DNA of 64,000 nt from Rhizobium sp. ZPR4. Lineage in GTDB: Bacteria > Pseudomonadota > Alphaproteobacteria > Rhizobiales > Rhizobiaceae. Each line of letters begins with the position of its first letter. Positions within the stretch are counted from its first letter, which is position 1. The translations under genes were made by a program, and so were the position numbers. The stretch spans positions 1,178,001 through 1,242,000 of the forward strand of contig NZ_CP157967.1 in NCBI RefSeq assembly GCF_040215725.1, in the 5' to 3' direction. Of this stretch, positions 105-16,534 are shown piece after piece. The notes beneath the pieces were generated by a model. That model ran no database searches. It was given only the letters and a program-made list of their open reading frames with translations, and was not told where the DNA came from.

Positions 105-109
105 GATGG

Positions 110-1442: not shown

Positions 1443-1590
1443 CGTGGTAGATCCTAATTTCTCTTTATTTCAATCTCAGCGGTCTTGTTTGTCAACTATG
1501 GATTGCTACAATTTTAGATTTGGGATGGAGCCAAGGGGCTCATGCCCCCTGAAACCATTGTCGGGCCGGTCAGCATCCGCGCGGCTATCG

Positions 1591-1653
1591 AAAAATCCGC
1601 TCTCCCGGCTGGTGCCGAGCAAGGCCAACGTGCGCCGCGTTAGCGCCGCCGGC
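1591..1653 (+). pseudogene. ParB-like N-terminal domain fragment
   Basis: The plus-strand reading KNPLSRLVPSKANVRR matches the opening of the ParB/RepB nuclease-like domain found in plasmid and island ParB proteins (pattern PLxxLVPSxxNVR). The rest of the domain, normally an ALAxSIxxxGLLxxL stretch, does not follow in any frame I can read. This is most likely the stub of a parB-like gene left by rearrangement. It is short, so the match could be partly chance. Confidence 0.5.
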
Positions 1654-1675
1654 CACCGTCATAGCCAAATGAAGA

Positions 1676-1843
1676 CTATGCCCTGGTCTTAAATTCCACC
1701 TTGCCAACCCAACTTCCGGAGACTGCGTTCGAGCTAATACCGAAAGTCTTTGGTGTTATCGCAACCGTGTAGGTGTGCGAAGTGCCGTCGGGAAGCTTGA
1801 CAATACCGTTTGTCTGCCAAAGCAGTGGTAGTTTGCCACTCAC
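1676..1843 (-). pseudogene. Short minus-strand frame, possible C-terminal remnant
   Basis: A 55-codon frame beginning at a GTG codon (the frame stays open further upstream) reads a protein-like sequence with LPDGTSHTYTV in the middle and SWVGKVEFKTRA at its end. Its composition looks like a real beta-rich polypeptide rather than GC noise. There is no obvious ribosome binding site and no recognisable family. It may be the tail of a gene whose front was lost, as with the ParB relic beside it. Confidence 0.25.
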
Positions 1844-2238
1844 CAAAACCCCGCGCGGATAGGTTAGACGCCGTGAATTGCGATGGGGCGTTGCGGGCTC
1901 CCCCGCAGAAGGGGTGACGTAAAACCGCCCGCCGGGTTGCAGTCAGGGGAAGGCTTTCCCCTCCAAGCTTCCTAACCCATCAACAAAACAATGTGCCGCC
2001 GGCACTTCCGCCGACGCGGCGTGCAGGCACGAGCGGCCCGCGGTCCAAATGGGCAGGCATCGGTAGGTGGTCCCGACAAGATCCACCGACATCAGCGTTC
2101 CGCAAGTCTGTGCTCGGGAGACCGCCCCCGGCGGCGGCACACGACTTGCGGGTTGCTGACGGTGGATCACGGTGCCACCTCACACCGATTGCCCATCGCA
2201 GAACGCGGACCTATCGGCACAAAGCCAAAGGCGGAATA

Positions 2239-2261
2239 GGTCGGACATCAGATGTCCGACC
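2239..2261. repeat. 23-bp perfect palindrome
   Basis: Two 11-base arms flank a single central A; each arm reads GGTCGGACATC on its own strand. Such a compact perfect dyad is typical of an operator, or of a protein-binding site at an origin. It lies 11 bp before the larger palindrome at 2273-2318. Confidence 0.7.
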
Positions 2262-2272
2262 GTGCGGGCGGC

Positions 2273-2318
2273 GGCGGGTCCGTCACTCGCCAACGTGTTG
2301 GGGAGTGACGGACCCGCC
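2273..2318. repeat. 46-bp near-perfect palindrome
   Basis: The outer arms are 16 bp and perfectly complementary (2273-2288 with 2303-2318, arm GGCGGGTCCGTCACTC). The centre holds a second dyad, CCAAC-GT-GTTGG. Only one position in each half (2289 and 2302, G opposite G) breaks the symmetry. It could form a long hairpin or cruciform. There is no T-run after it, so it is not a usual terminator. Confidence 0.75.
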
Positions 2319-2368
2319 AAACCCCAATCACCCCATTGGTTTATTCAAATGCCCTCACATGACAGATG

Positions 2369-2706
2369 AATGATGCCCGTTCCGAACGGAACGAAGCGGC
2401 ATCATTTTACCCGACAAGGCGCTGGCATTTAGCAGGCGCCATCGTTCACTATCCCCCCAGATCAAGCCTAAGCCTGATCCATCTTCCTCACCGTTTCCCC
2501 ACTCAGAAAGGAGAGCAACATGTTTGCTCACTGCATTCGTGCGCCGCCGCGGCGGCGCAACTCCCGATACCAGCTCACCGAGCCGGTATCGGACGCCCAA
2601 CAGGGCACACCACATCGGCCAGCCATCCGGCTGGCTCAGGACGGCTCTTACCGCAAGAAAGGAGACTAACCGCATTCCGGCCCCCGCCGCGAATGTCTTT
2701 TCGCGG
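2369..2706. other. Cluster of further hairpins upstream of the first integrase
   Basis: Five more inverted repeats follow in 340 bp. 2369-2406 has outer arms AATGATGCC/GGCATCATT around an inner GTTCCG/CGGAAC. 2541-2558 is a perfect 18-bp GC palindrome. 2564-2592 has arms CCGATACC/GGTATCGG. 2618-2635 has arms GCCAGCC/GGCTGGC. 2687-2706 has arms CCGCGAA/TTCGCGG. A repeated AGAAAGGAGA motif occurs at about 2505 and 2656. No long credible gene is present. The cluster may be a structured leader RNA for the integrase gene, a replication or transfer origin, or a recombination enhancer. These are inferences; only the dyads are seen directly. Confidence 0.55.
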
Positions 2707-2775
2707 GATGTATTGATCCAAGGATCTCTTCGCATCGGCCATCAACACTCACCTTGAACAAAGGAATAGAGTCTG

Positions 2776-3648
2776 ATGGACGATCTGACCATGGACCTTG
2801 TACGCTTGTGCCGGCGGAACCGTGACGGTTCGCGCGGCACGCAAGCCAATCGCCAACGCGGACTGACCGCAATGGCCGAAGACCTCCAGGAGCTTGGTTA
2901 CAAGCTACCGGGAGCTTCCTCCCTCAAACCCAAGCATGTTGAGGCCCTTGTCGAAAAATGGCTCGAGGAGGACAAGACCGACGCGAGCGTGCGCAACCGG
3001 CTGAGCTGGCTGCGCTGGTGGGCGGAAAAGATCGACAAACCGAATGTCGTCAGCCGCGATAACGCCGCCTATGGCGTCGCCGAGCGTGGCGAGGCGACCC
3101 GCAATCGCGCGCAGGTACTCGACCCGACGAAATTCAATACCATCGAAGATCCCCACATCAAGGCGTCGATTCAGTTGCAGGTCGCGTTCGGCCTTCGCCG
3201 CGAGGAAGCCCTGAAGTTCCGGCCGCATGTGGCTATACGTGCCGACCATATCTCGCTCCAGGCGAGTTGGACGAAAGGGGGGCGAGCACGAACTGTCGCT
3301 ATTGCGACTCTGGAGCAGCGCCAGGTGCTGCAATATGTCATGACGATTGCCAAGGGCCAGGATTCTTTGATCCCCGCCGAGCTAACCTACGTCGAACACC
3401 TCAAGCGCTACGAATACCAGACCAGCAAGGCCGGCTTGCGGAACACCCACGGGTTCCGCCACGCCTACGCCCAACGGCGCTACGCCGCGCTCACCGGCAA
3501 GCCGTGCCCGCTCGCGGGCGGCAAACGCTGGAAAGACATGGACGCCAAGGAGCGCGAAGCCGATCGCGCCGCAAGGCGGCAAATCTCGGCCGAACTCGGC
3601 CATGGCCGCTTGAAAATCACCGACACCTATCTGGGGAGTGCTTTCTGA
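2776..3648 (+). CDS. Tyrosine recombinase/integrase (first of two in the island)
   Basis: The 290-residue protein catalyses site-specific DNA strand exchange. The tyrosine-recombinase residues can be followed in order: Arg in LRREEAL near residue 142, His-x-x-Arg in HGFRH near 224-228, a GH pair in ELGHGR near 273, and the nucleophile Tyr in DTYLG near 285. The N-terminal 100 residues look like the SAM-like core-binding domain of short phage-integrase-N type proteins. The architecture resembles integrases common on proteobacterial plasmids and islands rather than P4-type tRNA integrases. A second ATG lies 15 nt downstream, so the exact start is open. The gene follows the palindrome cluster and overlaps the next gene by one base. 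It may belong to an older element nested in this island. Confidence 0.85.
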   Translation: MDDLTMDLVRLCRRNRDGSRGTQANRQRGLTAMAEDLQELGYKLPGASSLKPKHVEALVEKWLEEDKTDASVRNRLSWLRWWAEKIDKPNVVSRDNAAYGVAERGEATRNRAQVLDPTKFNTIEDPHIKASIQLQVAFGLRREEALKFRPHVAIRADHISLQASWTKGGRARTVAIATLEQRQVLQYVMTIAKGQDSLIPAELTYVEHLKRYEYQTSKAGLRNTHGFRHAYAQRRYAALTGKPCPLAGGKRWKDMDAKEREADRAARRQISAELGHGRLKITDTYLGSAF

Positions 3649-3950
3649 TGAAACGTGCAGAGGGCAATTTCCTGATGGCGACCAAGGTGCGCACCAAATA
3701 CGCCAACACAATCTTCAAGCCGGAAACAGTCGCCACCGCCATCGACGAGGTGGCCTTCAAGGGTCACCGGCAGTACCGCATTGTTCAGGAACTGCCGTTC
3801 GACCTGTCCGATACTGAGGCCGCCAAGGCCTTGGAGGAATGGCTCGATCAGGAACAGTTCCATTATATGTGGCGACCGACCCTGATTAAGCCGGATGATA
3901 TGCGGCCTACGATTTCTAGCGAATATCCCGAGCTTCTAATCGTCTGGTAA
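3648..3950 (+). CDS. Hypothetical protein coupled to the integrase
   Basis: A 100-residue frame begins at an ATG that shares its A with the stop codon of the integrase (TGATG), a strong sign of translational coupling. An internal Met at residue 10 could also be used. The product is mixed alpha/beta in character, acidic in its middle, with a Trp/Tyr-rich stretch (FHYMWRP) in its second half. I do not recognise the family. Its position suggests a recombination accessory factor or a regulator of the element. Confidence 0.6.
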   Translation: MKRAEGNFLMATKVRTKYANTIFKPETVATAIDEVAFKGHRQYRIVQELPFDLSDTEAAKALEEWLDQEQFHYMWRPTLIKPDDMRPTISSEYPELLIVW

Positions 3951-4209
3951 GCACAAGAGGCGCAGCCATCCACGCGGGGCTGCGCTCATGTCTTTCCGTA
4001 TCTGGACGTCCGATTTCATGGCAATGCCCAATACCAGCCCGTTAGAAATTTCCATCAACATTCCACCGCAATGCCCCGCCTGCGCGAAAGCAGATATAGC
4101 TGTGGAAAAGCAAAGGTTGAATTGAAGTATCTATTGTTTGCGACAGTAGGACTCGCAAATATTTCTCCGAAGTGAAATGTCGTTTATTCTTGATTCCTTG
4201 GAGAATGCT

Positions 4210-5286
4210 ATGTTTCGTAGCAGTCTGAACGCTACTATTTTGCTTTTTGCAGCCGGAGTATCTTCATGCTCAAGTTTTGTTAATGCAGGGGATGCAGAAG
4301 TCGTAGCGATAGACGCATCTCGGGTGGAGTCGAATTCAAATAACGTACAGCGAGTACTCTATGCGTTGTCGAAAGACAGCGCGGATTCTACAGGAAAAAC
4401 AAACTGGTATAGAGTAACGGAGGCGGGGTTTAATTACGTTGATACCCGCTGCGACGCCTATTTCGTGACGTTATTTAAGTTGGATCGTGACCGGCTTGCG
4501 GTTCGCGATACGCTATCGGGTTTCTCACAAACAACGTCGGCGATATTGGCCGCGACGGGTGCGAGTGGTATTTCGCTGGCTGTTGTTGCGCAGGCATTTG
4601 GACTGGGCGGCAGGCTGGTGGATATTTCAGCCAATTCGTTCCTTTATCGATTGCCCCCAGACCGGACTATGAAGTTTGTTGGGTCGCTTCAAACGGCTTA
4701 TCGTGGGGGCGCTTACCGACGTCAGAATGAGATCGACTCACCATCAAAGGCGTACCACGAGATACAAAGCTATCTGAAGCTATGCATGCCGCCGATGATT
4801 GAGGCTGAAATTGCGGACTATGTTGCCGACGCTCAAGCTGCCGTTGTGACAACAGACGGCCAGGCGAGGGTCGTTGTTGGAACCGGCCAGAGCGTTGCGC
4901 AAAAGATCGAAGCCTTGCGGCCTTTGCCGGACAGCAGGCAACACTTGCCAGCTCCGCGGCCACCACAACAAACCATGGGAGCAATCACGCCGTTCGAGAG
5001 CAAGCTTCCTCCTGTTCTGCTTAAACAAATCCAATCCCTTTTGTGTGTCCCCCCTACCGGCGTCTGGAATCAAGAAACCCGCAATGCGTTCGTCGCCTTC
5101 TATCAAGGCGGAGAACATCCGAGACCCGCGATCACAAAGGACGGAGTTCAACAGAACGATGTGACGCCGAAAATATCTGAGGCATTGCAGCTCTACAAAG
5201 CCGAGCTTCCAAAAAGTTGCACCGGTACGGGTGATTCCGCACGCAAATACAAAAGTGCCACCGAGCTGGGACAACTGATGTTCTGA
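4210..5286 (+). CDS. Lipoprotein with C-terminal peptidoglycan-binding-like domain
   Basis: The start at 4210 gives a signal peptide ending in a lipobox (GVSSC); a longer start at 4177 would spoil it. The 358-residue mature protein should be anchored in the outer or inner membrane. Near residue 110-135 there is a hydrophobic, Gly/Ala-rich stretch (SAILAATGASGISL) that could be a membrane or glycine-zipper segment. Near residue 275-310 a segment with LLCVPPTGVW and TRNAFVAF resembles a peptidoglycan-binding type 1 domain. The gene is AT-richer than its surroundings. It opens a tightly spaced set of four genes that all look envelope-targeted. The precise function is unknown. Confidence 0.65.
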   Translation: MFRSSLNATILLFAAGVSSCSSFVNAGDAEVVAIDASRVESNSNNVQRVLYALSKDSADSTGKTNWYRVTEAGFNYVDTRCDAYFVTLFKLDRDRLAVRDTLSGFSQTTSAILAATGASGISLAVVAQAFGLGGRLVDISANSFLYRLPPDRTMKFVGSLQTAYRGGAYRRQNEIDSPSKAYHEIQSYLKLCMPPMIEAEIADYVADAQAAVVTTDGQARVVVGTGQSVAQKIEALRPLPDSRQHLPAPRPPQQTMGAITPFESKLPPVLLKQIQSLLCVPPTGVWNQETRNAFVAFYQGGEHPRPAITKDGVQQNDVTPKISEALQLYKAELPKSCTGTGDSARKYKSATELGQLMF

Positions 5287-5316
5287 ATAATTTCCCTCAA
5301 ATCTACGGAGCATTCG

Positions 5317-6567
5317 ATGGCAGTCATGATTTCGACGCGTACACTCAGAGATGCTCCTGGTGGCAACTCTATCGGTATCGATGCGCCGGCTCGCGCCAAA
5401 GTTTCAATCCTTGATACGAAAATCCCCTGGGTTGAGATTCAGATTCCGGGCATTGCGGACACTCCCAAAGGTTGGGTGGCGGAAGCTGCTGTCGACCTTA
5501 ACAGCGATACACCCGGTCCGTTGGACAAACTGGCCTTTGCGTCACAATGCGCGTGGCAAGCGATTATCTACGATGTCAGCGCGCATTACCTGGTCGCCGT
5601 CGCTTCCTTGCGCACTGATATTACCGACGGTCCGCATGCGAATGGCGCGGAGACCGGACCGTTCTCGTTATCTCCTCAAGTCTGGGGGGCCTATGCGCAG
5701 CGCCCCGAAGTCCTTGGCCAATTTGCGGCTGCTGATATCAACGACTGGCTTGTTCAGTGTGTTGTCTTCGCGGTCATTACACGGATCACACAAAAGACCC
5801 TCGCAACATTGCTCTCCGATCAGCCCACGGTTCGCGAGCTGTACCTTGCACAGATAGTTGGAACTGCTGCTGCTGCTGCTGCTATCGCCGACCCATCCAC
5901 CTCCCTTGCATCAAAATTGAATGCTGTTGATGCCAGCGAGTTGGGACGAGAGGGAATTGAGCCCCAGAAAATCGCGGCTAGCTTGCTGAATCTAACAGGC
6001 GCCGCCGCTCTCGATAAATTGGGAGCGGCGCTCGATACTGCTCTCAAGAACACAAGCCAGTTCATAGCGACGGTCGCAGCAGAGATCCTGTCGTCCTCGG
6101 ACGCAACGTTGTCGCCGACAACATCCCCGAGTGTGTCGATTAATTTTGACGCTGCCAAAATCCCACCCAAGCGAAAAGACATGGCACAGCTAATAGTTCA
6201 GCGATTTCAGGAGGCCGGATACGGAGCTATTCAGGAGGTTGCGGCGCTGGCAAACGCGATTGCCGAATCCGGGCTTGACCCCACGATTAAATCTGCGGGA
6301 ACCGAAAAAAGCTACGGACTATTTCAGCTCAACCAAAACGGAGTTGGGGCAGGCCATAGCGCAGATGAGCTGCGTGACCCCGAACGGAATATCGCGATTA
6401 TGTTGCAGTATATGAGCGGTGAGGAACATGCTTCTGATCTGCTGTTTCGGGCTGCGACATCGCTACAGGATGCCGTATCAATTTTCGTTAGAAAGTTCGA
6501 ACGCCCTGCCGACACCGCTGGCGCGATAACCACGCGCCTTCAGATCGCTGTCAATCTTGTTCATTAG
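5317..6567 (+). CDS. Putative murein hydrolase with SH3-like and lysozyme-like domains
   Basis: The 416-residue protein appears modular. Residues 1-65 look like a bacterial SH3 domain. Residues 75-185 contain TGPFSLSPQVWGAY and RELYLAQIVG, which resemble a transglycosylase-like fold followed by the LYLAHFLG-type motif seen in phage-associated lysozymes. Residues 290-415, with VAALANAIAESGLDPT and YGLFQLNQNG, resemble a phage tail-type lysozyme, where the Glu after IA would be catalytic. No signal peptide is evident, so export would rely on another route. It lies 30 bp after the lipoprotein gene and 11 bp before the next gene. Domain calls are by eye and only moderately certain. Confidence 0.6.
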   Translation: MAVMISTRTLRDAPGGNSIGIDAPARAKVSILDTKIPWVEIQIPGIADTPKGWVAEAAVDLNSDTPGPLDKLAFASQCAWQAIIYDVSAHYLVAVASLRTDITDGPHANGAETGPFSLSPQVWGAYAQRPEVLGQFAAADINDWLVQCVVFAVITRITQKTLATLLSDQPTVRELYLAQIVGTAAAAAAIADPSTSLASKLNAVDASELGREGIEPQKIAASLLNLTGAAALDKLGAALDTALKNTSQFIATVAAEILSSSDATLSPTTSPSVSINFDAAKIPPKRKDMAQLIVQRFQEAGYGAIQEVAALANAIAESGLDPTIKSAGTEKSYGLFQLNQNGVGAGHSADELRDPERNIAIMLQYMSGEEHASDLLFRAATSLQDAVSIFVRKFERPADTAGAITTRLQIAVNLVH

Positions 6568-6578
6568 GGGCTGCCAAC

Positions 6579-7694
6579 ATGAGCGACGGAAATGAACCCA
6601 CGCCGGCAGGTGCGCAAGCTCCGCCTCAACCGCCACCCGATCCAAACCAAGCACAATCACCGCAGGCAAACAACGAAACTAAGAGTAGGCGTTTTTCCAT
6701 GCCATCCGGGCGGACCTTGTTGACTTGGTTGCCATTGGCCGTCCTGGTAGTCTGGACAGTATTCTTTATTAAGCCTTGGAAATCACCAGCGGAAAGCAAT
6801 GCGGATGACGTTGCTCTTGCGTGGAACACGACCATGCGGCGGCTGGATATTGATCCAGTTTATCCGCCTCAAGAGGATCTGTCCGTGGGGGATATCTATC
6901 TCATCCTCGATGCCGCTCATGGTGGCGCCGCAGACACCGACGGGAATCTGAAGGGACGAAGCGTAAAAATCGCAACGCTCGATATGCGCGATAATTTTTC
7001 GAGGAGACCGTATACATTTACTTTCACGGAAAACGACCCAACAACTCCAAAAATCGAGGAAGCAAGTCAGGCTCCCGCCACGACGAATTCAACCGACGAT
7101 AAATCCGCACCTGTCGAGCTTTCGATCACAGCTTTCCCCGGGGTCGATGTTAAGACATTCGTCGGAAGCCAGGCGAGTGGATGGAACTTTTCGCTTGGCA
7201 GAAAGACCGGCCAAACTGAGGAAATTTCGATCCCGACTGCTGAAACCTATTCCGTGCCAGTGGTGGATGCAGTGTTGAGATTGGCGAAATTCTGCGGCGA
7301 GAAATCGACTGCCACATTTTGCCAAGATGACGCGGCGCGGAAAATTCTCTCATATGCGTTTGGCGATGCGGTGAACGAGCGCGTTAATGGCGCCTATACC
7401 TTCAATATCCGCATTAGTCTCATCCGACAGGTCTTCCTGACCCGGTATATCAAATCTCAACGTTTCCGCGGAGATGGAGTTACGGCTGGCTTCAAAGAGC
7501 CGGCCAACCAAGGCGCCGCCGACGAGGGCACACAAACTCCATCAAAACAGGCAGCCACTTCTGCGGACTACCAGAATAGATACTCAAATGGCGTGAAGCT
7601 GGAGCGGCCATTTTCACGACCGATAGCGTTCGGATTCCGTCAGGTGTCGTTCGCCCTAAAGCCCAACAGTACTAACCTGGGGAACGGGAAATGA
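6579..7694 (+). CDS. Single-span membrane protein with Pro-rich N-terminus
   Basis: The 371-residue product begins with a 35-residue Pro/Gln/Ala-rich cytoplasmic tail. One clear membrane helix follows near residues 45-65 (LTWLPLAVLVVWTVFFI), and then a large, probably periplasmic region. This is the topology of a bitopic type II membrane protein. I do not recognise the periplasmic domain. It overlaps the next gene by 4 nt (ATGA), so the two are co-translated. It sits directly after the putative lysozyme gene, which suggests a membrane-anchored assembly acting on the cell wall. Confidence 0.6.
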   Translation: MSDGNEPTPAGAQAPPQPPPDPNQAQSPQANNETKSRRFSMPSGRTLLTWLPLAVLVVWTVFFIKPWKSPAESNADDVALAWNTTMRRLDIDPVYPPQEDLSVGDIYLILDAAHGGAADTDGNLKGRSVKIATLDMRDNFSRRPYTFTFTENDPTTPKIEEASQAPATTNSTDDKSAPVELSITAFPGVDVKTFVGSQASGWNFSLGRKTGQTEEISIPTAETYSVPVVDAVLRLAKFCGEKSTATFCQDDAARKILSYAFGDAVNERVNGAYTFNIRISLIRQVFLTRYIKSQRFRGDGVTAGFKEPANQGAADEGTQTPSKQAATSADYQNRYSNGVKLERPFSRPIAFGFRQVSFALKPNSTNLGNGK

Positions 7695-7999
7695 GTATAA
7701 GTAGGTCCACGCTTATCTTGGGTTTACTTCTGCCACTCCAAGCTCTGGCAGACGATTTACCCAAAAACCCGGCGCCCATATGCGCCGACGGAGATGTAGG
7801 TTGCACCCTCAGCAATTTGCCCTGGGTCGCTCCGCCTATCGTAAGTAATGGGCCTGGTGTCATTGAGCAACATGTCCAAGATAAAGACTTCAAGTCGCAA
7901 ATTTCTCCAGACATGTTCAAGAAACAAGTGTCGCCTGACCTTCAGAAGGACATTTTGAAGTCGCTACAAACTAGTCCCTCCCTGCAACAGCTTAAATAA
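7691..7999 (+). CDS. Small secreted protein
   Basis: The 102-residue product has a typical Sec signal peptide (residues 1-20, cleavage likely after ALA). The mature part contains a Cys pair (CADGDVGC), a Pro-rich stretch and a C-terminal half rich in Lys/Asp/Gln with repeated SPD-like steps (QISPDMFKK, QVSPDLQK). It overlaps the membrane protein gene by the ATGA arrangement and is the last of the four-gene module. The family is not recognised. Confidence 0.55.
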   Translation: MSISRSTLILGLLLPLQALADDLPKNPAPICADGDVGCTLSNLPWVAPPIVSNGPGVIEQHVQDKDFKSQISPDMFKKQVSPDLQKDILKSLQTSPSLQQLK

Positions 8000-8124
8000 A
8001 AGCCACGGCGCACGGATAGAACAGGGAATCGACGGAAGAATACAGCAACCTATAGGGAAGTGAAATTATGTTGCAATTCTAACAACGGTTGCTACTCTGC
8101 CCCAAGTTGGACTGGGGCGACACG

Positions 8125-9858
8125 ATGACCAACAAGTTTGATCCTTTTGGTGATTTTCAACGTCAGTTTTCGATAGCGACAAAATTTGGGAATTGGGGCC
8201 TCAAAGCCGGAAGGCATTTGAGAGCCAAGTTCACGCGGGGCGATATTGAGCGGATGTATGGGCCAGAGGTGGCCGATGCCGTCGAGGCGGCCATCCGCTC
8301 CGGCCGGGATCCCGGGCCCATCATCGAGCGCGCCGAGCGGGATCTGGCCGCCCGCCAGGAGCGGGAGCGGCTCGTCGCCAACCCGCCACCCCTTTACGGG
8401 TCGGCGCGATGGCCGACATCGCAGGATCTTCGTCAGTATCTCAGGCCTCGTGAGGCGTTCGACCATCCACGCTCGCTCCTGCTGGGTGCCTTCAACGACG
8501 AAGGCGAGACCAAATCGGCCGGGTTGGTGCATTGGGATGGGGATGGGCACTTGCTGACCATCGCGCCGACGCGCTCCGGCAAAGGCAAGACCACGATCAT
8601 ACCCAATCTGTTACGCTACCAAGGCAGCTGCGTGGTCCTCGACCCGAAGGGTGAGCTGTTCGAGGCGACATCGGCGTGGCGCGGCAAGCTTGGCCCAGTC
8701 TACCGCATTGCCCCGCTGGATGGTGGTTGTGGCAAGCCGGTGCATCGCTTCGATCCCGTGAGCCGGGTTCGTCGTCCGTCGGATTCACGCTCCATCGCGC
8801 AGCAGATGTTTCCCCATGATCCCAAATCCCCGTCATTTTTCGCTGACGATGTCGTCGGCTTCATGACCGGTGTCATCGAATACGTCCGCCATAAAGCGCC
8901 ACCGCATCGACGGAGCCTTGCGACCGTCTGCCAGATGGCATCCTTGAAGGGCGCGAGCCTGCTCAAGGTCATGAAGGAACTGGAGACGTTTCCGCCATCC
9001 GCCGATGCCGCTAAGGCCGTCCTCGAAAAAGATCCGCAGCGCGGTTTGAAGGTGTTGCAGGAAACGCTTTCCAGCAAGCTTTATGAATGGAAAGACCCGG
9101 ATATTCAGCGGAGTATCAGCGGAAACGATGTGAGTTTCGAAAGCCTGAAGGATCAAACGGCGACCGTCTACATCGAAATCCCGTTCGACATGATGAAAAC
9201 CCTTTCGGGATGGTTGCGCGTCGTCCTGAAGGCTGCGCTTGACGCCATGCTCGCCAATCCACGCATTCCGGAAATCCCCGTTCTGTTCATGCTCGACGAG
9301 TTCCTGAACATCGGGCCGTTCCCGGAATACCGCGATGCCATCAACACCCATGCCGGCGCGGGCGTCCGGCTCTGGTTCTTCCTGCAAAATCTTTACGCCA
9401 TTCAGGAACATTATCCCGGCGCCAGCTGGCAGCCGTTCCTGAACTGCGCCGTGAAGCAGTTTTTCGGGGTCAACGACGAGGAAACCGCCAAGCTGATCGG
9501 CAGTTATCTCGGCCACAAGACCCATGCCTACATGAACACCAGCGGCAGTGCGAACCTATCATCCCATCTTGGCGGATGGCCGAGTGACGCTTCCACCAAC
9601 AGCGGCATCTCCATGAGCGAGAGCGTCCAGTTTCTGGGTCGCCCGCTTCTGACCAGCGATGAGGTCCGTGAACTGCTGGGCGGATGGCAAGGCGACGGCT
9701 GGCGCTACGGCATTACCGACATCGCGGGGACACGCCCGTTCAAAACGGGACTCGTCGTCCACGAGAAGAGCGAAACCTGCAGACAACGCATCGGAATGAT
9801 ATCGCTGGGGAACGATCATGAGCGACGTAAGGGTGAATCTTCACAATCTCAGAAATAG
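8125..9858 (+). CDS. VirD4/TraG-family type IV coupling protein without N-terminal membrane helices
   Basis: The protein is a DNA-pumping ATPase of the coupling-protein family that docks relaxosomes to a type IV secretion channel. Walker A is APTRSGKGKTT near residue 147, followed by VVLDPKGE. Walker B is VLFMLDEF near residue 385. The family region LWFFLQNLYAIQEHYP and a C-terminal DEVRELL segment are present. The start at 8125 was chosen because the frame upstream of it is not protein-like. VirD4 proteins normally carry two N-terminal membrane spans; here the first 140 residues are soluble, charged and partly coiled (IIERAERDLAARQERERL). The gene overlaps the following M48 protease gene by 41 nt, which implies coupled expression. 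Confidence 0.88.
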   Translation: MTNKFDPFGDFQRQFSIATKFGNWGLKAGRHLRAKFTRGDIERMYGPEVADAVEAAIRSGRDPGPIIERAERDLAARQERERLVANPPPLYGSARWPTSQDLRQYLRPREAFDHPRSLLLGAFNDEGETKSAGLVHWDGDGHLLTIAPTRSGKGKTTIIPNLLRYQGSCVVLDPKGELFEATSAWRGKLGPVYRIAPLDGGCGKPVHRFDPVSRVRRPSDSRSIAQQMFPHDPKSPSFFADDVVGFMTGVIEYVRHKAPPHRRSLATVCQMASLKGASLLKVMKELETFPPSADAAKAVLEKDPQRGLKVLQETLSSKLYEWKDPDIQRSISGNDVSFESLKDQTATVYIEIPFDMMKTLSGWLRVVLKAALDAMLANPRIPEIPVLFMLDEFLNIGPFPEYRDAINTHAGAGVRLWFFLQNLYAIQEHYPGASWQPFLNCAVKQFFGVNDEETAKLIGSYLGHKTHAYMNTSGSANLSSHLGGWPSDASTNSGISMSESVQFLGRPLLTSDEVRELLGGWQGDGWRYGITDIAGTRPFKTGLVVHEKSETCRQRIGMISLGNDHERRKGESSQSQK

Positions 9859-10741
9859 CAGTATCCCGACCTGGTTGGGCTTGGTTCTCGGAACATGGGG
9901 CGGCCTGATCTGGGGCAGCCTGATTTCCTCTCCAATCGGCGTAGGCGTTGGTGTTGCCGCCCTAAGCGGCTTTGGCGGTTTCATCGCCGTTCCCTTGTGG
10001 GGAACGTTCTGGGGCCTGATTGGTCTTGGCAGCCAGCGAGACAGGGCCGTACGACAAGGCGTGACCTTGCTCAAGGAAGATGAACCCCTGGCGCAAAGGG
10101 TTCACGCGTTGGCCGCCCAACTCGGTCTCAAAACCAAGCCCTGGGTTGGCACCATGCCGTACAACAACGCGTTCGCCATCGGCGCCAACGCCGACAATGC
10201 CATGGTGGTGATCGGACAGCCCTTGATCGACACGCTCGATGCCGCCGAAATTGACGCCATTATCGGCCATGAGCTTGGTCACATCGCCAACAATGACATG
10301 CGCCGAATGGGGCTCGCACGTTCGTTCCAGAACTCGCTGGTCTGGTATGTCCGGTTTTCGCAGACGCTCGAAACCTGGGCGCGCTGGATACTCACATGGA
10401 TGTCGGAACTCGCCATCCTACGGCTTTCCCGGAAGCGCGAGTACTGGGCCGACGCCATCGGCGCGGCGCTGACGAGCAAGGAACATATGATTTCGGCTCT
10501 GGAGAAGCTGCACAACGGCCCGGCCATTAGCGGTTTTGAACACGACAATGCGCGCATTATGGTCCGGGGGCGGGCGCTCGGTTCGATGCTCTCGACACAT
10601 CCCACGCTTGAGGAGCGGCGGATTGCCCTCCAATCGGAGAGATTCCTCAAGCGGATTCCGGTACACGCTCCCAGATCGTTGCCACCGCAAGTTCCTGGCG
10701 TCTTACCAAAGGCCGAGGATATCGCCTATGCGAAGCGATAG
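9818..10741 (+). CDS. M48-family (HtpX-like) membrane metalloprotease
   Basis: The 307-residue protein has two hydrophobic N-terminal segments (about residues 18-45 and 50-70). The zinc site is HELGH near residue 150, with the third ligand Glu in KREYWADA near 207, typical of M48 peptidases. The catalytic domain would face the cytoplasm as in HtpX. The start overlaps the coupling-protein gene by 41 nt. The last 16 nt overlap the 3' end of the convergent HNH gene. An island-borne HtpX fused in expression to a coupling protein is unusual. It may process or control a mobilization component, but that is inference. Confidence 0.85.
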   Translation: MSDVRVNLHNLRNSSIPTWLGLVLGTWGGLIWGSLISSPIGVGVGVAALSGFGGFIAVPLWGTFWGLIGLGSQRDRAVRQGVTLLKEDEPLAQRVHALAAQLGLKTKPWVGTMPYNNAFAIGANADNAMVVIGQPLIDTLDAAEIDAIIGHELGHIANNDMRRMGLARSFQNSLVWYVRFSQTLETWARWILTWMSELAILRLSRKREYWADAIGAALTSKEHMISALEKLHNGPAISGFEHDNARIMVRGRALGSMLSTHPTLEERRIALQSERFLKRIPVHAPRSLPPQVPGVLPKAEDIAYAKR

Positions 10742-11751
10742 GTGAAATTGTTGGCTAAAGCCTTTTCTGCCTCCTCCACTTCCGCTGGCACCTTAAAAAG
10801 AGTGTCGTCGTCCTCGGATAAAGCTGTTTCGGGACTGTAGTGTAACGACTGGCTGGGCCCTTCAAAGACCGTGATTCGTTTTCGCGGAGGGCAGCGATTT
10901 ACTACTTCCTGTGCTGGTTCGCGTTCACCAAAGAACCCGATAAGCCGGTGAGATCTATTCCACTCAATGGCCCATGCCCAACAGTCCGCAGATGGATGCC
11001 GTCGCGTCATGAGCTTGAAGAAACCGTCAGCCGTTACGGCATGCAGACGGTTATCCCAATCTTCGACTTCCCGCATAAACCCTCGCATGACGGGATTGCC
11101 CCAGTCTTCCCAGCGCGTCATGAGGACGGGATGAAAGCCATGCAGCCACCAGCGACCCTCGCACGTCTCGGCACTATAGGTCTGCATGAAGAAGAAGGCC
11201 ACGAGATGCAGCCGCGCTAACTCAAAAGCCCGCGCCTCATCAATTTGTGGAGGCGCCACCATGCTGAAATTCACAGTGACTCCCGGCCCAAGGCTACCAC
11301 CGATGTTCAATGTCTCGCGGCTGTCCTGAACAGGCTTCTTCGTGCGTCGGCTAATGGAGTTTGCCGCGCGTCGTCGCGCTTCTTGAATCGCAGCCATATC
11401 GTCATGCGAGTAACGTCCGGTCGGGTCGGGCGCAAGAGTAATGGCGGCAATGTCGTTTTCAAGGTCTGACTTATCGTTGTTACATGATCGGCAGGCGTTG
11501 AGGATCAGGTTCCATTGACCATTGAGCTTCCCCTTGGGGACAAACCGGCGACCAATTACATGGTCTCTAGTGCGGTTGCTGTCTGTCAATGCGATGCCAC
11601 AATAAGCGCAGCGCGCATTCTTGAGTACGACGGCGCGATTTGCAGGATAGATACGGCGGGTTGGCCTCATGAAGTAGCTATTTCCGAATTCGTGAAAGGA
11701 CCGTGTATGAATTTGAATGTCGGGAAAATCGATCGCTACGGTTTCCACCAA
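10726..11751 (-). CDS. HNH endonuclease domain protein
   Basis: The 341-residue protein has an HNH-type nuclease domain near residues 48-100. CAYCG and CRSCNND form two zinc knuckles, RDHV provides the catalytic His, and WNLILNAC completes the fold. About 240 C-terminal residues of unknown fold follow. HNH proteins of this kind occur as homing-type nucleases and as anti-phage effectors. The gene is convergent with the M48 gene (16-nt overlap), and its start overlaps the end of the upstream coiled-coil gene by the same amount, so it is probably read with the mob operon. Confidence 0.75.
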   Translation of the reverse strand: MVETVAIDFPDIQIHTRSFHEFGNSYFMRPTRRIYPANRAVVLKNARCAYCGIALTDSNRTRDHVIGRRFVPKGKLNGQWNLILNACRSCNNDKSDLENDIAAITLAPDPTGRYSHDDMAAIQEARRRAANSISRRTKKPVQDSRETLNIGGSLGPGVTVNFSMVAPPQIDEARAFELARLHLVAFFFMQTYSAETCEGRWWLHGFHPVLMTRWEDWGNPVMRGFMREVEDWDNRLHAVTADGFFKLMTRRHPSADCWAWAIEWNRSHRLIGFFGEREPAQEVVNRCPPRKRITVFEGPSQSLHYSPETALSEDDDTLFKVPAEVEEAEKALANNFTYRFA

Positions 11752-12209
11752 TCCAGATAATCCTCCGGTTCGCGATCTTCGCGATGCATCTCGTCGAGCA
11801 TCCGTTCCTCAGCCTCACGACGCGGGTGGCGCTCATCCCGCGCAATGTCCCGCCGTTCCGGTCCGGGCGCATCAAGGACAGGCCGTAACCAGTCCAGATG
11901 ATCTTCCTGTATGGCGGGCGTTTTGGCTTCCCATTGCTGAGTGACCAGCCTTTCAACACCTCTTTCGTCCTGCTCGCGGATACGGTTTTCCAGATCTTCA
12001 ATCTGCGCCGTGGCCTTACCGAGCTCGAACATAAAGCCAGCCTGGGTTTTCTGGCGCTCGGTGAGTACCATGATGGCGTGGCCGACATCATCGGTCGCGG
12101 CGGCTATCGCATGGATGGCGCGCTCGATCTGATAGTCGAGATCCTCTATCGTATCCTCAAGGGTGTGGGCATGTTCACGCAAGGCTTCCAGTTGCGCTTT
12201 CATATCCAT
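11736..12209 (-). CDS. Coiled-coil protein of the mobilization operon
   Basis: The 157-residue product is strongly helical and charged. Residues 1-75 form a likely coiled coil (LEALREHAHTLEDTIEDLDY), followed by a charged tail ending in DYLDWWKP. The DxLDW phrase recurs (DHLDWLRP here, and DHTLDWMD and NHLDWLD in the neighbouring relaxase), which hints at shared tail repeats in this operon. It overlaps the HNH gene. A relaxosome accessory role is likely from position but unproven. Confidence 0.6.
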   Translation of the reverse strand: MDMKAQLEALREHAHTLEDTIEDLDYQIERAIHAIAAATDDVGHAIMVLTERQKTQAGFMFELGKATAQIEDLENRIREQDERGVERLVTQQWEAKTPAIQEDHLDWLRPVLDAPGPERRDIARDERHPRREAEERMLDEMHREDREPEDYLDWWKP

Positions 12210-12232
12210 GGTGGCCTCCGGTCAAGGCAAGG

Positions 12233-12616
12233 TCAGTGGGCGTAATAGTAGGTGGGCTGATGATCGGGCTGGTCTTGTAGTTCGGCAATGAGAAAGGCGC
12301 GCAGGCGCTCACCTGACGCAACAAGTTCCTGAGCACGGGCGTGGAAGTAGTAGGTGCTCTGGCGCAGTTCCTCGCTGATATCTGGCAGGGTGTCCGCCTG
12401 GATCTTTCGCATCGCCCAGTAGGCGAGCCGCTTGCGGCGGCGAATGAGGTCGGTTTCCAACCATTCCAGCTCCTTCCGCGTCTTTGCGCGCTGCTCATCC
12501 GTCAACTCGCGGATGCCAAGTACCGAGCCTGTGTAAACCTGTGTCATGCAGAAATGATGGGACGACCTCCGCCATTCTGCAAGTGCTATCTGCGGCTTTG
12601 TTCCGGCTCGTGCCAT
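12233..12616 (-). CDS. Small helical protein overlapping the relaxase gene
   Basis: The start at 12616 is preceded by a good GAGGA ribosome binding site and overlaps the relaxase 3' end by 31 nt; an alternative start at 12547 would not overlap. The 127-residue protein is helix-rich with many Arg/Lys/Glu residues (RAKTRKELEWLETDLIRRRKRL) and lacks membrane segments or enzyme motifs. The arrangement resembles small accessory mob genes next to MOBQ relaxases. Function is not known. Confidence 0.55.
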   Translation of the reverse strand: MARAGTKPQIALAEWRRSSHHFCMTQVYTGSVLGIRELTDEQRAKTRKELEWLETDLIRRRKRLAYWAMRKIQADTLPDISEELRQSTYYFHARAQELVASGERLRAFLIAELQDQPDHQPTYYYAH

Positions 12617-13662
12617 TCGCCATCCTCGGATGGTTTGGGGAGAGGTTGAATCTCCACGTCCAGCCAGTCGAGATGGTTTTCCCACCGTTCCAGAACCGCT
12701 AGGTCACCCGGACTTTCAGCATGCTGCTCTGGTCGGTCCATCCAGTCCAACGTATGATCGGGAGCCAACCGATAGGCGGCGGCTTCGTCCTCGCTCAACT
12801 CGCGGCTATTCTGGCGGTCGAGGGCGGCCTGCGCATCAGCGCGGTCGCCGGCTTGCTCCACGCGTTCTGCCGGCACCGGCCAGTGCATGGCGTCAAGCAT
12901 CTTGGTTTCCGCCGCGTCCAAGTCGCGGGGATGGATCGGCGACCCGTCGGGATCGGGCACGGGAAGGTCATGGTCAGGCTCATCGGCTCGCATCTGTTCG
13001 TTCTCCTTGCGCGCATGGGCGCGGCGTGCACGCCGTTCGTCCGGGTTGGCGCCACGGTGGGTTCCGGGTATTTGCTCGGCATTGCGTTTGGCATGACTGC
13101 GGTTATCGATCGTCACGGACACGCCGGCTTTGGCCAAGGCCTCGTTCGCCACCTTCTTCCAGAGGCTGCGCGCTTCGGTGACGAACTGGCGCCCGTCAGC
13201 GCTGCGGATCTTCGGCCCAAACCCGTCCGGCGTGACCACACGTGTGGTCATCAGGAGGTGGACATGGGGATTGTGGCGAGTGCCGTCCTCGTGGATGGCG
13301 AGATCCACCACGAAGCCTTGCGTCGTGTACGCATTGGCCATGGCACGGGCCACGGTGAGCCAGGTCTCGCGCGGCAGCTCCCTCGGAATCGCGAATTCGA
13401 TCTCTTTGGCGAGACGTGCATCGACGCGCTTTTCCGCTTCCTCGACGCCATTCCAAAGCCGCGCGCGATCCGCCATCCACGATGGCGCACCCGCGGGGAG
13501 GTGGATTTCATTGGCGACGACATCGCGCCGTCCGCTGAATGCGGACTCGCGCTCCTCGGCTTCATTGGGCAGGGTCTCACCGGCACGATAGGCGGCGGCG
13601 GCCACGATGGTCCGCCCGTCGCCGCGACTGATGTTTTTCACATGCAGATGGTAGATGGCCAC
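12586..13662 (-). CDS. MobA/MobL-type (MOBQ) relaxase
   Basis: The 358-residue protein matches the N-terminal relaxase domain of MobA/MobL proteins. It opens with the typical AIYHLHVKNISRGDGRT, continues with SAFSGRRD-like and FAIPRELPRE segments, and carries the three-His metal motif in HNPHVHLLMTTR near residues 124-135. A Tyr for DNA transesterification is expected near the N-terminus (AAAYRAGE has one at about residue 25). The C-terminal 120 residues are acidic and hold DxLDW-type repeats. Unlike RSF1010 MobA there is no primase domain. The gene starts about 120-160 bp from an oriT-like hairpin and heads the minus-strand mob operon. Confidence 0.88.
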   Translation of the reverse strand: MAIYHLHVKNISRGDGRTIVAAAAYRAGETLPNEAEERESAFSGRRDVVANEIHLPAGAPSWMADRARLWNGVEEAEKRVDARLAKEIEFAIPRELPRETWLTVARAMANAYTTQGFVVDLAIHEDGTRHNPHVHLLMTTRVVTPDGFGPKIRSADGRQFVTEARSLWKKVANEALAKAGVSVTIDNRSHAKRNAEQIPGTHRGANPDERRARRAHARKENEQMRADEPDHDLPVPDPDGSPIHPRDLDAAETKMLDAMHWPVPAERVEQAGDRADAQAALDRQNSRELSEDEAAAYRLAPDHTLDWMDRPEQHAESPGDLAVLERWENHLDWLDVEIQPLPKPSEDGEWHEPEQSRR

Positions 13663-13775
13663 ACACCTCTCCTCGGCACGGACGGGGGTCCAGGGGTCTC
13701 CCCGGGCGCACTTGCCGATTTTCTCCGGACGCCGTGCGGCCGGTTAGAAAATCGTGCAACGCATCGCCTCTTTTG

Positions 13776-13821
13776 CCAATGCGTACACATTGGGGCGATG
13801 CGTAGGTGCGCTGTTACGCAT
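13776..13821 (+). other. Candidate oriT hairpins and nic-like region
   Basis: Two inverted repeats lie just upstream of the relaxase gene: CCAATG/CATTGG (13776-13793) and ATGCGTA/TACGCAT (13798-13821). The sequence TAGGTGCGC in the second loop region resembles the TAAGTGCGC core of MOBQ nic sites as in RSF1010. Location, dyads and motif fit an origin of transfer. The cleavage position cannot be fixed from sequence. Confidence 0.45.
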
Positions 13822-13952
13822 TGATACATGGTTGGTTGTTTCTTTCAAGATGGCGGCAACACTGCAGGTTGCCGAACCTCCTTGGGAAAGTCTCCCGAGC
13901 GCGCGATTATCAGTTGAGAATGGCCCGCCACTTTGCTAGCAGAGGAAACCAC

Positions 13953-14242
13953 GCGGACGTGGTGAAACTGGTAGACACAAGGGACTTAAACGCAATTTGA
14001 GTGCACCGGCGGAAACGCTGGCTGTAGAACTGCTCAAAGTCGGGGAACCCTGTCAGATGGCGATCCCGAGCCAAGCCTCGCGAGAGGAAGGTGTAGAGAC
14101 TAGACGGGCAGCACCTAAGGCAACGCTAGGGTGAAGGTATAGTCCAGACCACAAACGCCGAATGGCGGCGGCGAAAGCCGTAGCTGGTAAGAAAATCCCT
14201 CGGCCTTTGGCTATACGGGTTCGACCCCCGTCGTCCGCACCA
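13953..14242 (+). tRNA. tRNA-Leu(UAA) interrupted by a group I intron
   Basis: The 5' exon (13953-13987) and 3' exon (14192-14242) join into an 86-nt tRNA with an encoded CCA. The acceptor stem is GCGGACG/CGTCCGC, and the anticodon stem AGGGA/TCCCT encloses the loop CUUAAAA, giving anticodon UAA. A long variable arm typical of tRNA-Leu follows, and the T loop is GTTCGAC. The intron sits exactly between U34 and A35. The gene is complete and lies inside the island, about 300 bp past the relaxase start. It reads UUA (and UUG by wobble), rare codons in this GC-rich genome. It is probably the working replacement for the broken copy at 16469-16534. Confidence 0.93.
13988..14191 (+). ncRNA. Group I self-splicing intron (IC3-like) in tRNA-Leu(UAA)
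   Basis: The 204-nt intron shows the expected landmarks. P1 pairs exon ACTT with GAGT, leaving the conserved U-G pair at the 5' splice site. The R and S elements (GTAGAGACTAGACG and GGTATAGTCC) pair as P7 through GACTA/TAGTC. GCGAAAGC gives a GNRA-capped P9 hairpin, and the intron ends in G14191. Its sequence and U34/A35 position match the cyanobacterial and plastid tRNA-Leu(UAA) intron. No homing endonuclease is encoded. Splicing would need only guanosine and magnesium if it behaves like its relatives. Confidence 0.92.
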
Positions 14243-14330
14243 ATTGCATATAGTTGAATATTAGCTTGACCAAATCCCTTTCTCGGTAATTCTATTCATA
14301 CCGCTGTGCGCGTAAGAGGGAGGGGTTCTC

Positions 14331-15083
14331 ATGAGCGACTTCAGCGCAATCCCAGATGTGCATCAATCGGCGGCAGCAAGTCGCCCGCCGGGAATGTTGG
14401 CCGACGCATCGGCGCCGGCTGTTCTGCCGCCGATCGGTGCGGGTCCTATGCCCATCCTGCCGCAGTACCAGCCCTTGCTGATTGGTGAGACCAACGGCGA
14501 GTTCGGCGTATTCGATGCAAATGGGCATACATGCAGAGTTCCAAAAATCGTCAATATCTCAAAGATACGAGCATTCTTCGGAGGGTGCCCACCGGCCAAG
14601 TTTCTAAACGATCAAAATCCCGAGTGCAGCTGTAAAGCGTTCATTTCTCAAATGGATGATTTCGGTATATTAACAACAAAAATTGGCGGCCAGTACTATA
14701 CCGCTTACGGTACCGGGATTGGCTATCCGATTATGCTCGTAATATTGGCGCTAATTGTCTTTGGGACGATTGGAGCTCCAATTATTTATTTCATCTCTTA
14801 TCGCATGAGCAGATCAGAGATTCAGGCGACGAAAAACCCCGAGTTCTTTTTTCAATGGCACGCACGGCGGCTTTCCGGCCTCTTCGCACTTGTGCTCTTC
14901 TGCGCAGGTTTTGCCTTATTCTTTCTAAGCCTCGCGGGGACGAGCGAAATTGAACTCCTCGGCCTCAGACTTTCCACCAACTATCCGGGCTTAGTGATGG
15001 TCGCCTTTGGATTTCTGATCTGGTGGCGAATTCTGAGCGGTACGTTGCGCGTTGTGAAAGCAGCTCCGTCCGGGGGTGGGTAA
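14331..15083 (+). CDS. Membrane protein of unknown function
   Basis: The 250-residue product begins with an 80-residue Pro/Ala-rich, probably soluble region. A Cys-rich patch follows (CPPAKF, CSCKAF near residues 90-105), and then membrane helices: one near residues 133-158 (IMLVILALIVFGTIGAPIIY), one near 185-205 and one near 215-240. No family is recognised. It stands alone between the intron-bearing tRNA and the integrase, 90 bp after the tRNA. Codon use is AT-richer than in the chromosomal genes, in line with acquisition. Confidence 0.6.
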   Translation: MSDFSAIPDVHQSAAASRPPGMLADASAPAVLPPIGAGPMPILPQYQPLLIGETNGEFGVFDANGHTCRVPKIVNISKIRAFFGGCPPAKFLNDQNPECSCKAFISQMDDFGILTTKIGGQYYTAYGTGIGYPIMLVILALIVFGTIGAPIIYFISYRMSRSEIQATKNPEFFFQWHARRLSGLFALVLFCAGFALFFLSLAGTSEIELLGLRLSTNYPGLVMVAFGFLIWWRILSGTLRVVKAAPSGGG

Positions 15084-15110
15084 TTCACCGCGACGTTCAA
15101 AAGGCGCTAA

Positions 15111-16334
15111 CTAAGCTCGGTGTGCATTCCGCTTCTCATGCTCAACGATCTTCTTCTTCGACTTCACCTTGCGCCGGACGTTCACGGCGGCGGCGCTGAT
15201 GCTGGTCGAGATGTGTGAAGCGTAGTATTTCTCAATCATCTCGACGCTGGTCCGGCAGTTCTTGGCGACCTGGTAGATATCGGCGCCTTCCATAAGCCGC
15301 AGGCAGATATAGGTATGCCGCAGGCTGTAAGCCGTGCGGCGAGTGCCCTCGCGGTCGAACTTCAGGCCTTCCTCTTCCAGGATGTTGTTGAACATCTCCA
15401 TGTGGTTGTCTTCAAAGATCAGCGCCTCCGGCTTCGGAAGGTTCCGCTTGAGCAGCCGCTCGAACGGGAACACGGCGCTAGGCATGCTCTTGCAATAGCC
15501 CACACCACGCTTGCCACGCACCTGGATCAGCAGGATGGTTTCCTTGGTCTCTTCATCCTCGACGATTTCGACATCCCGGTACTGAAGCCTCTTGGCTTCG
15601 TCGGGCCGCAGGCCGGTATTGGCCATGAACAGCACATAGTCGTGCAACTGCTGCGCATTCCACTCGAAGCGCTTGCCCTGGTGCTCCTCGGCGCGTTTGC
15701 GGGTCGCCGTGTAAAGTTGCTTGTATTCATCGGGTGAGAACCACGCCCGGTGCGAGATCTTCTCGGCGGACTTATACGGGGTCGTAAGATCCGGCAGATG
15801 GGTCAGCCAGCCATGCCGGATGGCGGTTTTCAGAACCTGTCGCAGCACCACGATCTCCTGATGCAGGGTGTTCTTGGCGGGCAGCTTCTTGACCGGCTTG
15901 CCGTCAGGATCGTCCTTCGGCACCACCTCAGGCGCGGTGGTGTAGCGCATGACCCGGTATTCCTGCACTTTGCCCGCCGTCACCTCCGACAGCCCCAACT
16001 CGCCGAAGAAGGGGGTAAGGTAGAGCCGCAACCGGCGCTCGTTGCCATCGACGTAAGTGCGGTTGCGGGCGCCGCCGGTCACCACGTCGTATTCCTCAAG
16101 ATAACGCTTGGCGGCCTCCTTGAAGGTCTTCTCGTCCTTCAGCCCGCCGCCTTTCTCCTTGGCTTTCATCCGGAAGAACCAGTCCTCCGCGAATTCCTTC
16201 GCCTGGGCGAGGCTTTCTTCGCCGGTGCTGGTCCGCCAGTTCTTGCCGTTGATGCGGGTGGAGCACTGCCACCGTTTGCTGTTCTCACGGCGGTAGACGA
16301 GCACCTTGCCGCCTAAAATCTCGTGCGTGGCCAT
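15111..16334 (-). CDS. Tyrosine recombinase/integrase next to the tRNA-Leu junction
   Basis: The 407-residue protein (start at MATHEILGG; a longer start at 16400 is possible) has an N-terminal AP2-like/arm-binding region, a core-binding domain near residues 90-190 and a catalytic domain. Catalytic residues are Arg in GLRPDEAKR near 241, His-x-x-Arg in YSLRHTYI near 338, and the nucleophile Tyr in MIEKYYASH near 369. It lies about 135 bp from the truncated tRNA-Leu and is transcribed away from it. This is the usual layout of an integrase and its attachment site, so this enzyme, rather than the first integrase, most likely inserted the island here. Confidence 0.9.
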   Translation of the reverse strand: MATHEILGGKVLVYRRENSKRWQCSTRINGKNWRTSTGEESLAQAKEFAEDWFFRMKAKEKGGGLKDEKTFKEAAKRYLEEYDVVTGGARNRTYVDGNERRLRLYLTPFFGELGLSEVTAGKVQEYRVMRYTTAPEVVPKDDPDGKPVKKLPAKNTLHQEIVVLRQVLKTAIRHGWLTHLPDLTTPYKSAEKISHRAWFSPDEYKQLYTATRKRAEEHQGKRFEWNAQQLHDYVLFMANTGLRPDEAKRLQYRDVEIVEDEETKETILLIQVRGKRGVGYCKSMPSAVFPFERLLKRNLPKPEALIFEDNHMEMFNNILEEEGLKFDREGTRRTAYSLRHTYICLRLMEGADIYQVAKNCRTSVEMIEKYYASHISTSISAAAVNVRRKVKSKKKIVEHEKRNAHRA

Positions 16335-16468
16335 GCTTTCAATCCCATCCTTGCGTCCCGAAAACTGTGCATCAGACTGTGTATGGAATGTGTACGCCAA
16401 AATGGCGGAGATTTTATGGCGGGTGAAATATTAAATAGCTGATTTCACATAATTATTTTTGATGATGA

Positions 16469-16534
16469 GAACCCGTAGGGACAAAGGCCGAGGGATTTTA
16501 AGTCCCTTGCGTCTACCAGTTTCGCCACGTCCGC
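16469..16534 (-). pseudogene. Truncated intronless tRNA-Leu(UAA) at the island junction
   Basis: On the minus strand this reads tRNA-Leu(UAA) from its first base through the anticodon loop (CUUAAAA without intron) and variable arm to the T loop (ACGGGTTC), and then diverges into AT-rich island DNA. The last 20 or so bases, including the 3' acceptor strand and CCA, are missing, so the RNA cannot fold into a working tRNA. It is nearly identical to the exons of the intron-bearing copy but not exactly (for example GGCGAAAC versus GGTGAAAC), so it is a separate gene. It most likely marks the integration site in the resident gene. Confidence 0.88.

Follow-up and report, generated by a model that had tools for sequence, protein, structure and literature searches.

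An integrative mobilizable element of Rhizobium breaks tRNA-Leu(UAA) and carries an intron-bearing replacement that may be hidden from its integrase

Introduction

Why should a genomic island that destroys a tRNA gene of its host bring along a complete second copy of that gene, and why should this copy be interrupted by an intron in the anticodon loop? The question is raised by a stretch of 64,000 nucleotides from Rhizobium sp. ZPR4, here called the window (G000:C1:1178001-1242000 of a 7.74 Mb genome). A first-pass annotation had proposed that the element complements the damage it causes and thereby makes its host dependent on it, and that the intron breaks an att-like sequence such that the integrase cannot attack the element's own tRNA. 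Here, we describe the anatomy of the locus, follow the arrangement through the genus and among related integrases, and weigh the possible roles of the intron.

Results

The resident gene is cut in two within the anticodon loop

The following features define the ends of the island:

16534->16469, minus strand: broken tRNA-Leu(UAA), equivalent to attL; consists of the host 5' half including the anticodon arm, followed by an island-derived tRNA-like stretch that ends in the T loop
16489..16505, minus strand: 17-bp att core common to attB, attL and attR
1..16505, no strand: right part of the island; the left part starts at C1:1143034, outside the window
G000:C1:1142994-1143044: host tRNA 3' half at the far island end, 51 kb left of the broken copy

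The resident tRNA-Leu(UAA) gene is destroyed, as the island cuts it in two. ARAGORN does not call a tRNA at the broken copy and finds no intact tRNA at either junction, attL ending in the T loop and attR lacking the 5' half. The first-pass annotation had correctly recognized a truncated intronless tRNA-Leu(UAA) on the integrase side but had set the break in the T loop. The crossover site is instead the anticodon loop; what lies between the variable loop and the T loop on this side is island DNA resembling the tRNA, not the 3' half of the host gene. That half resides with a second copy of the core at the left island end, which could thus be located as the first-pass annotation had called for. 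With 51,455 bp from one core copy to the other, the island is 51.5 kb long. The core, GGACTTAAAATCCCTCG, covers the anticodon arm, the region in which an att sequence had been surmised.

An empty site is present in G479, a genome labelled as the same species. It contains an intact, intronless tRNA-Leu(UAA) gene, which agrees with the assumption that the truncation stems from the island, and its flanks match those of the island with 98.63% identity over 6342 bp on the right and 98.75% over 5051 bp on the left. The island has its integrase at a junction, an att repeat at each end and an empty counterpart in a relative. A related element in G549 allows the exchange to be narrowed down further. 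In its attL, AGAGACTTAAAATCCCT, the loop is preceded by AGAGA and followed by TCCCT, in its attR, AGGGACTTAAAATCTCT, by AGGGA and TCTCT, respectively. Since these stem markers differ between attL and attR, the exchange would fall within the 11-bp sequence GACTTAAAATC, if the host stem is, as assumed here, the paired AGAGA/TCTCT.

The island is an integrative mobilizable element

Three island genes are relevant for its movement:

15111..16334, minus strand: tyrosine recombinase (integrase) of 407 aa (PF00589, E 0.0021, 18.3 bits, under the curated cut-off of 27.1; family alignment)
12586..13662, minus strand: MobA/MobL relaxase (PF03389, 1.1e-53; NF041496 MobQ, 197.8 bits, just under the cut-off of 200)
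8125..9858, plus strand: VirD4/TraG-type coupling protein (PF02534, 2e-52)

With these genes, of which relaxase and coupling protein were found among 13 different island proteins scanned, the island is an integrative mobilizable element residing at a tRNA gene. The Pfam matches of the integrase are sub-threshold, but the family alignment is well conserved and is better suited by an ATG start at 16334 than by the TTG at 16400. Phage records contained no match to the integrase, and viral contigs provided a single integrase locus (L265). A further gene close to the left end of the island putatively codes for another tyrosine integrase (G000:C1:1146724-1148106, translation judged by eye). The part of the island to the left of the window furthermore contains a four-gene CBASS-like defence cassette (L046:983-5523) comprising SMODS cyclase, E1-E2/ThiF, JAB and SAVED endonuclease genes.

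The replacement gene is split by a probable group I intron

13953..13987, plus strand: 5' exon of the island-borne tRNA-Leu(UAA), ending at U34
13988..14191, plus strand: probable group I intron of 204 nt between U34 and A35, ending in G (RF00028, ARAGORN)
14192..14242, plus strand: 3' exon of the island-borne tRNA-Leu(UAA), CCA encoded

ARAGORN recognizes 13953-14242 (+) as a complete tRNA-Leu(taa) with the intron i(36,204) and exons of 35 and 51 nt, so that a full island copy in opposite orientation to the broken gene, with an intron in its anticodon loop, is present just as first described. The intron scores 47.8 bits against RF00028 (E 2e-10) and is missing from a default Rfam scan because the gathering score is 50; of the introns of six relatives, three lie above this value (58.2, 57.4 and 51.9) and three below it (44.3, 44.1 and 36.3). 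An endonuclease ORF is not apparent in the intron, whose 204 nt correspond to a maximum of 68 codons, nor does any ORF of at least 90 aa overlap it. Its insertion point, U34|A35, is the middle of the 11-bp exchange region. We infer that the intron splices itself out of the replacement tRNA because 25 genomes yielded no intact UAA gene besides the intron-bearing copy.

No other intact UAA gene was detected, and the replacement may outlive the element

The replacement is the only tRNA-Leu(UAA) gene detected in the genome. A 79-nt query did not detect any other complete copy; its 11 matches comprise the two exons of the replacement, the broken copy, the 3' half 51 kb away and seven others with E values of at least 0.28. 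Likewise, taa is absent from 45 tRNA-model matches, among which the leucine anticodons are caa, cag, gag and tag (44 anticodons read, the 45th being tRNA-Cys). A second intact gene, which would have spoken against the first-pass reading, was thus detected by neither search. UUA codons are rare but present: among 25 host ORFs with a length of 250 aa or more to the right of the island, seven contain such codons, 11 in total.

Among 148 genomes of the same genus, 25 carry a full-length intron-bearing tRNA-Leu, and an intact intronless tRNA-Leu(UAA) was not detected in any of these carriers. A contiguous UAA arm (at most 3 mismatches) occurs in 119 of the 123 non-carriers, is absent from 20 carriers and stems from the broken copy only in the other five (G000, G406, G466, G476 and G549), whereby an arm does not equal a gene and the pattern can miss diverged genes such as the intact UAA gene of non-carrier G445. 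Exactly these five genomes contain integrase homologs with at least 84% identity. Eight further genomes, including the intron carriers G009, G438 and G485, have integrase relatives or fragments of 57-64%, which brings the genomes with an integrase-family match to 13 in the genus. All of the 20 carriers without an integrase of at least 84% identity exhibit host-flank matches on both sides of the intron-bearing tRNA within 8 kb, and an integrase remnant is recognizable in one of them (L242). This suggests that these loci are decayed elements of which the tRNA was kept, such that the replacement would outlive the element.

Two candidate proofs of such a descent were rejected. A stretch of about 2.4 kb from the R. 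pisi element recurs in 17 of the 20 carriers and corresponds to a 679-codon ORF, which is also found in G437 without an intron-bearing tRNA and may be an old gene of the locus. The ycaO-tfuA pair is present in just one of the 20. In the R. pisi element the TfuA and YcaO genes are located at L230:8441-10356, and they also occur in the relic locus L242.

Other tRNA loci of the genus deserve mention. At L272, L273, L274, L275 and L276, the 5' half of a tRNA-Leu(UAA) is broken at the same core in Rhizobium-genus genomes, with another contiguous arm present. A further Rhizobium-genus genome encodes an intron-bearing tRNA-Arg(CCT) (L282:6241-6540), and weaker intron-only matches in the genus may be of a similar kind.

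As proposed in the first-pass annotation, the element supplies the function that it destroys. The idea of an addicted host does not hold in the same way: precise excision should restore function by rebuilding the intact host gene, because the empty site holds an intact tRNA. The system would rather act as a ratchet once the element decays than as a plasmid-style post-segregational addiction, and dependence would become permanent only upon loss of the att site or the integrase. If the element were deleted while integrated, or lost imprecisely, the cell would be left without the one UAA gene detected.

Loci of this kind occur with related integrases in at least two phyla

A scan for related integrases yielded 226 loci, of which the best 80 were used. 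They originate from Alphaproteobacteria, Gammaproteobacteria, Acidobacteriota, Planctomycetota, Verrucomicrobiota, Binatota, Nitrospinota and others. In 61 of these 80 loci, a motif search located the 5' half of a tRNA-Leu no more than 420 bp upstream of the integrase gene; at four of the remaining loci, the contig offers less than 420 bp on this side. A complete intron-bearing tRNA-Leu is present in 30 of the 80 (ARAGORN; one of 31 rows was dropped as a spurious tRNA-Met, and five of the 30, named Ser or Phe by ARAGORN owing to wrong intron ends, as for the L146 anticodon, were counted as Leu on sequence). According to their record titles, these 30 loci belong to Pseudomonadota, nearly all of them Alphaproteobacteria, and to Acidobacteriota. 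The combination of an intron-bearing replacement and a related integrase hence recurs in at least two bacterial phyla. At 28 of the 30 loci, the intron-bearing tRNA lies downstream of the integrase gene and shares its strand; in L107 and L109, the closest kin of the window among the 80 loci listed, it is further away and inverted. Partial intron-bearing copies occur at six more loci (L117, L121, L122, L143, L149 from Binatota, and L182), where a contig end cuts the gene or, in L143, unknown bases interrupt it, and at L108 the intron-bearing copy is more than 5 kb away from the integrase gene.

Other loci have intronless genes. A tRNA-Leu(CAA) without an intron is situated downstream of the integrase gene at 13 loci, ten of which exhibit a broken 5' half by motif. 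An intronless UAG gene is found at two Planctomycetota/Verrucomicrobiota loci without a clear broken target, and an intronless UAA gene at one Phycisphaerae locus. The fetched DNA did not contain a replacement at 12 CAA-target loci, all from Acidobacteriota, and at the UAA-target loci L110, L160, L167 and L169, of which L160 ends shortly after the integrase gene. Seven relatives (L112, L133, L134, L135, L145, L152 and L158), which fall into two separate clades of the integrase tree, have an intact tRNA gene (Met, Thr, Phe or Arg) immediately upstream of the integrase gene.

Co-divergence of intron and integrase was considered and discarded: rho is 0.19 for 31 rows (reached by 54 of 2000 permutations) and -0.009 after removal of near-duplicates (n=19), when the nearest neighbours of intron and integrase agree in 2 of 19 cases.

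Matches to the intron-bearing tRNA of the window were also found in 1,288 plasmid records (1,260 over at least 80% of the length, 1,279 at 60-80% identity). Two plasmid records were viewed. In plasmid pCTX-M3, a gene resembling an intron-bearing tRNA-Leu lies without annotation in the vicinity of aac(3)-IId (L266:4001-4299, pCTX-M3 61823-62121); ARAGORN gives it a wrong anticodon.

Intronless replacements often have a recoded anticodon stem

Among the best 80 of 226 loci, positions 30-31 are GA in all 30 intron-bearing replacements. Of 14 intronless CAA or UAA replacements, 8 have other bases there (8 of 16 when the two UAG genes are included), as against none of 29 resident CAA genes and one of 29 UAA genes fetched (AGGCA), which, judged by its sequence, is probably the replacement of G014 described below. 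The comparison of 8/14 intronless replacements with 0/29 resident CAA genes gives a Fisher p of 2e-5, on rows that are phylogenetically non-independent and with a resident sample (30 loci fetched, one per genome, as best matches to the CAA gene of this genome) that may favour GA. The stem stays paired where the pair 30-40 is changed from G-C to C-G (L115, L176 and L129) and where the pair 31-39 is changed from A-U to U-A (L130 and L142). A third stem change is common to L119, L123 and L126, which are close mutual relatives. Resident CAA genes are freely variable at position 29, which is why the test was moved to positions 30-31; a version over positions 29-31, with the stem identical to that of the target in 21 of 29 intron rows and 1 of 15 intronless rows (two intronless rows had mis-parsed targets), overstates the effect and was rejected.

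Within the genus, a broken tRNA-Leu(UAA) is found in G014, and no more than 250 bp further on lies an intronless replacement with a swapped 30-40 pair (L268:6843-7111). The locus adjoins ORFs that, judged by eye, resemble Vsr endonuclease and C5 methyltransferase genes, and a related integrase is not apparent in its fetched 14 kb. G436, G437 and G233 show only an intronless gene with the swapped 30-40 pair; neither these genomes nor G014 are among the 13 of the genus with an integrase-family match.

On the other hand, 6 of the 14 intronless replacements keep GA at positions 30-31. The replacement of L131 equals its own target at all of positions 29-34, and five more differ at position 29 only or at 29 and 32. 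In G441, an intronless UAA gene with the unaltered GGACTTAAAATCC resides 2.5 kb away from a broken-up integrase of about 55-60% identity; this genome keeps another UAA arm elsewhere. Hiding the replacement thus looks like a tendency with two common devices and with exceptions.

Discussion

The account that we consider likely is that a mobilizable element swaps the tRNA-Leu(UAA) gene of its host and that the intron keeps the replacement from being an att site. Elements of this kind usually carry the lacking portion of the tRNA and thereby reconstitute the gene. Here, the tyrosine integrase would recombine within the anticodon loop, leaving the host gene cut in two while the island supplies a complete second gene. 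This replacement must not itself be an att site, as it could otherwise serve the integrase as a recombination partner for attL, attR or an incoming attP. An intron at U34|A35 would part the half-sites of the integrase by 204 bp in the DNA and be spliced out in the RNA. Recoding of the stem at pair 30-40 or 31-39 may be a second device with the same expected effect in intronless replacements. The first-pass annotation was right about the anatomy, the intron lying in the middle of the exchange region, and its view of the intron as immunity is favoured by the comparative stem data. Judged from sequences, the comparison lends good support to the idea that the intron shields the replacement gene from the integrase; that the integrase cannot use the split site, and that this is the selective reason for the intron, we infer.

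The intron could instead be a passenger: the replacement makes integration harmless, and the allele brought in happens to bear an intron without any role in att immunity. An intron of the same kind interrupts tRNA-Leu(UAA) in most cyanobacteria and plastids (PMC4476775), the six intronless replacements with an unaltered 30-31 stem manage without either device, and intron and integrase distances disagree at depth. We nevertheless regard a mere passenger as rather unlikely, since the placement within the 11-bp exchange region is exact and stem changes unseen in resident genes occur only where the intron is lacking; of the two intronless UAA replacements near a family integrase, that of L129 is recoded, although that of G441 is not. 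Even less probable, to a degree that we would hardly count on it, is that intron or stem change mainly block homologous recombination of the replacement with the resident fragments: the exons of the copies are indeed similar (95% over 41 nt, 90% over 31 nt) and the intron interrupts this homology, but the exon homology per side is equally short with or without it, and changing one stem pair barely lowers homology yet alters bases flanking the exchanged loop.

If the intron acts as a shield, the idea that tRNA introns hide integration sites, hitherto advanced for archaea, could be put to the test in a bacterial system amenable to genetics. The system would also illustrate how a mobile element can appropriate an essential function of its host and thereafter be safe from loss through deletion, and it might explain why tRNA-Leu(UAA) introns are scattered so unevenly among bacteria. 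Much more tentatively, and with some doubt of our own, integrase pressure might be a main reason for group I introns in bacterial tRNA-Leu(UAA): the intron would be the att shield of a phylum-crossing family of tRNA-swapping elements with stem recoding as an alternative shield, many resident intron-bearing genes would be domesticated remnants, and the trnL introns of cyanobacteria and plastids could share this origin. The insertion point of the latter is presumably identical to that of the island intron.

Among open-licence PMC papers, we found no published bacterial element that breaks a tRNA-Leu gene and brings an intron-bearing replacement; a paper on Sulfitobacter turned out to concern something else. 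Related principles have been described. The 7-bp anticodon loop and its stem fit the core sites of integrases, and in classical tRNA-restoring elements the loop is likewise the overlap region and the flanking stem the core site (PMC8371274). As presented there, such elements restore an uninterrupted tRNA (PMC8371274), whereas here the gene stays broken. The cyanobacterial and plastid trnL(UAA) genes share with the island a group I intron in tRNA-Leu(UAA), which is located in the resident gene in their case (PMC4476775) and in the replacement in ours. IStrons, combinations of a group I intron and an insertion sequence, are similar in that splicing renders the presence of a mobile element harmless (PMC4227781); the island intron differs by interrupting a replacement tRNA and by having no tie to a transposase. 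A similar idea exists for archaea: a tRNA intron at an att site would block integration and may benefit the integrated element, a proposal of intron gain that builds on Randau and Soll (Sugahara et al., 2012, PMC3293823, and as cited therein). As far as that account goes, the archaeal intron is located at position 24/25 of one locus and entered via attP-attB recombination (PMC3293823), whereas the present case involves bacteria of at least two phyla, a group I intron and a separate, complete replacement gene.
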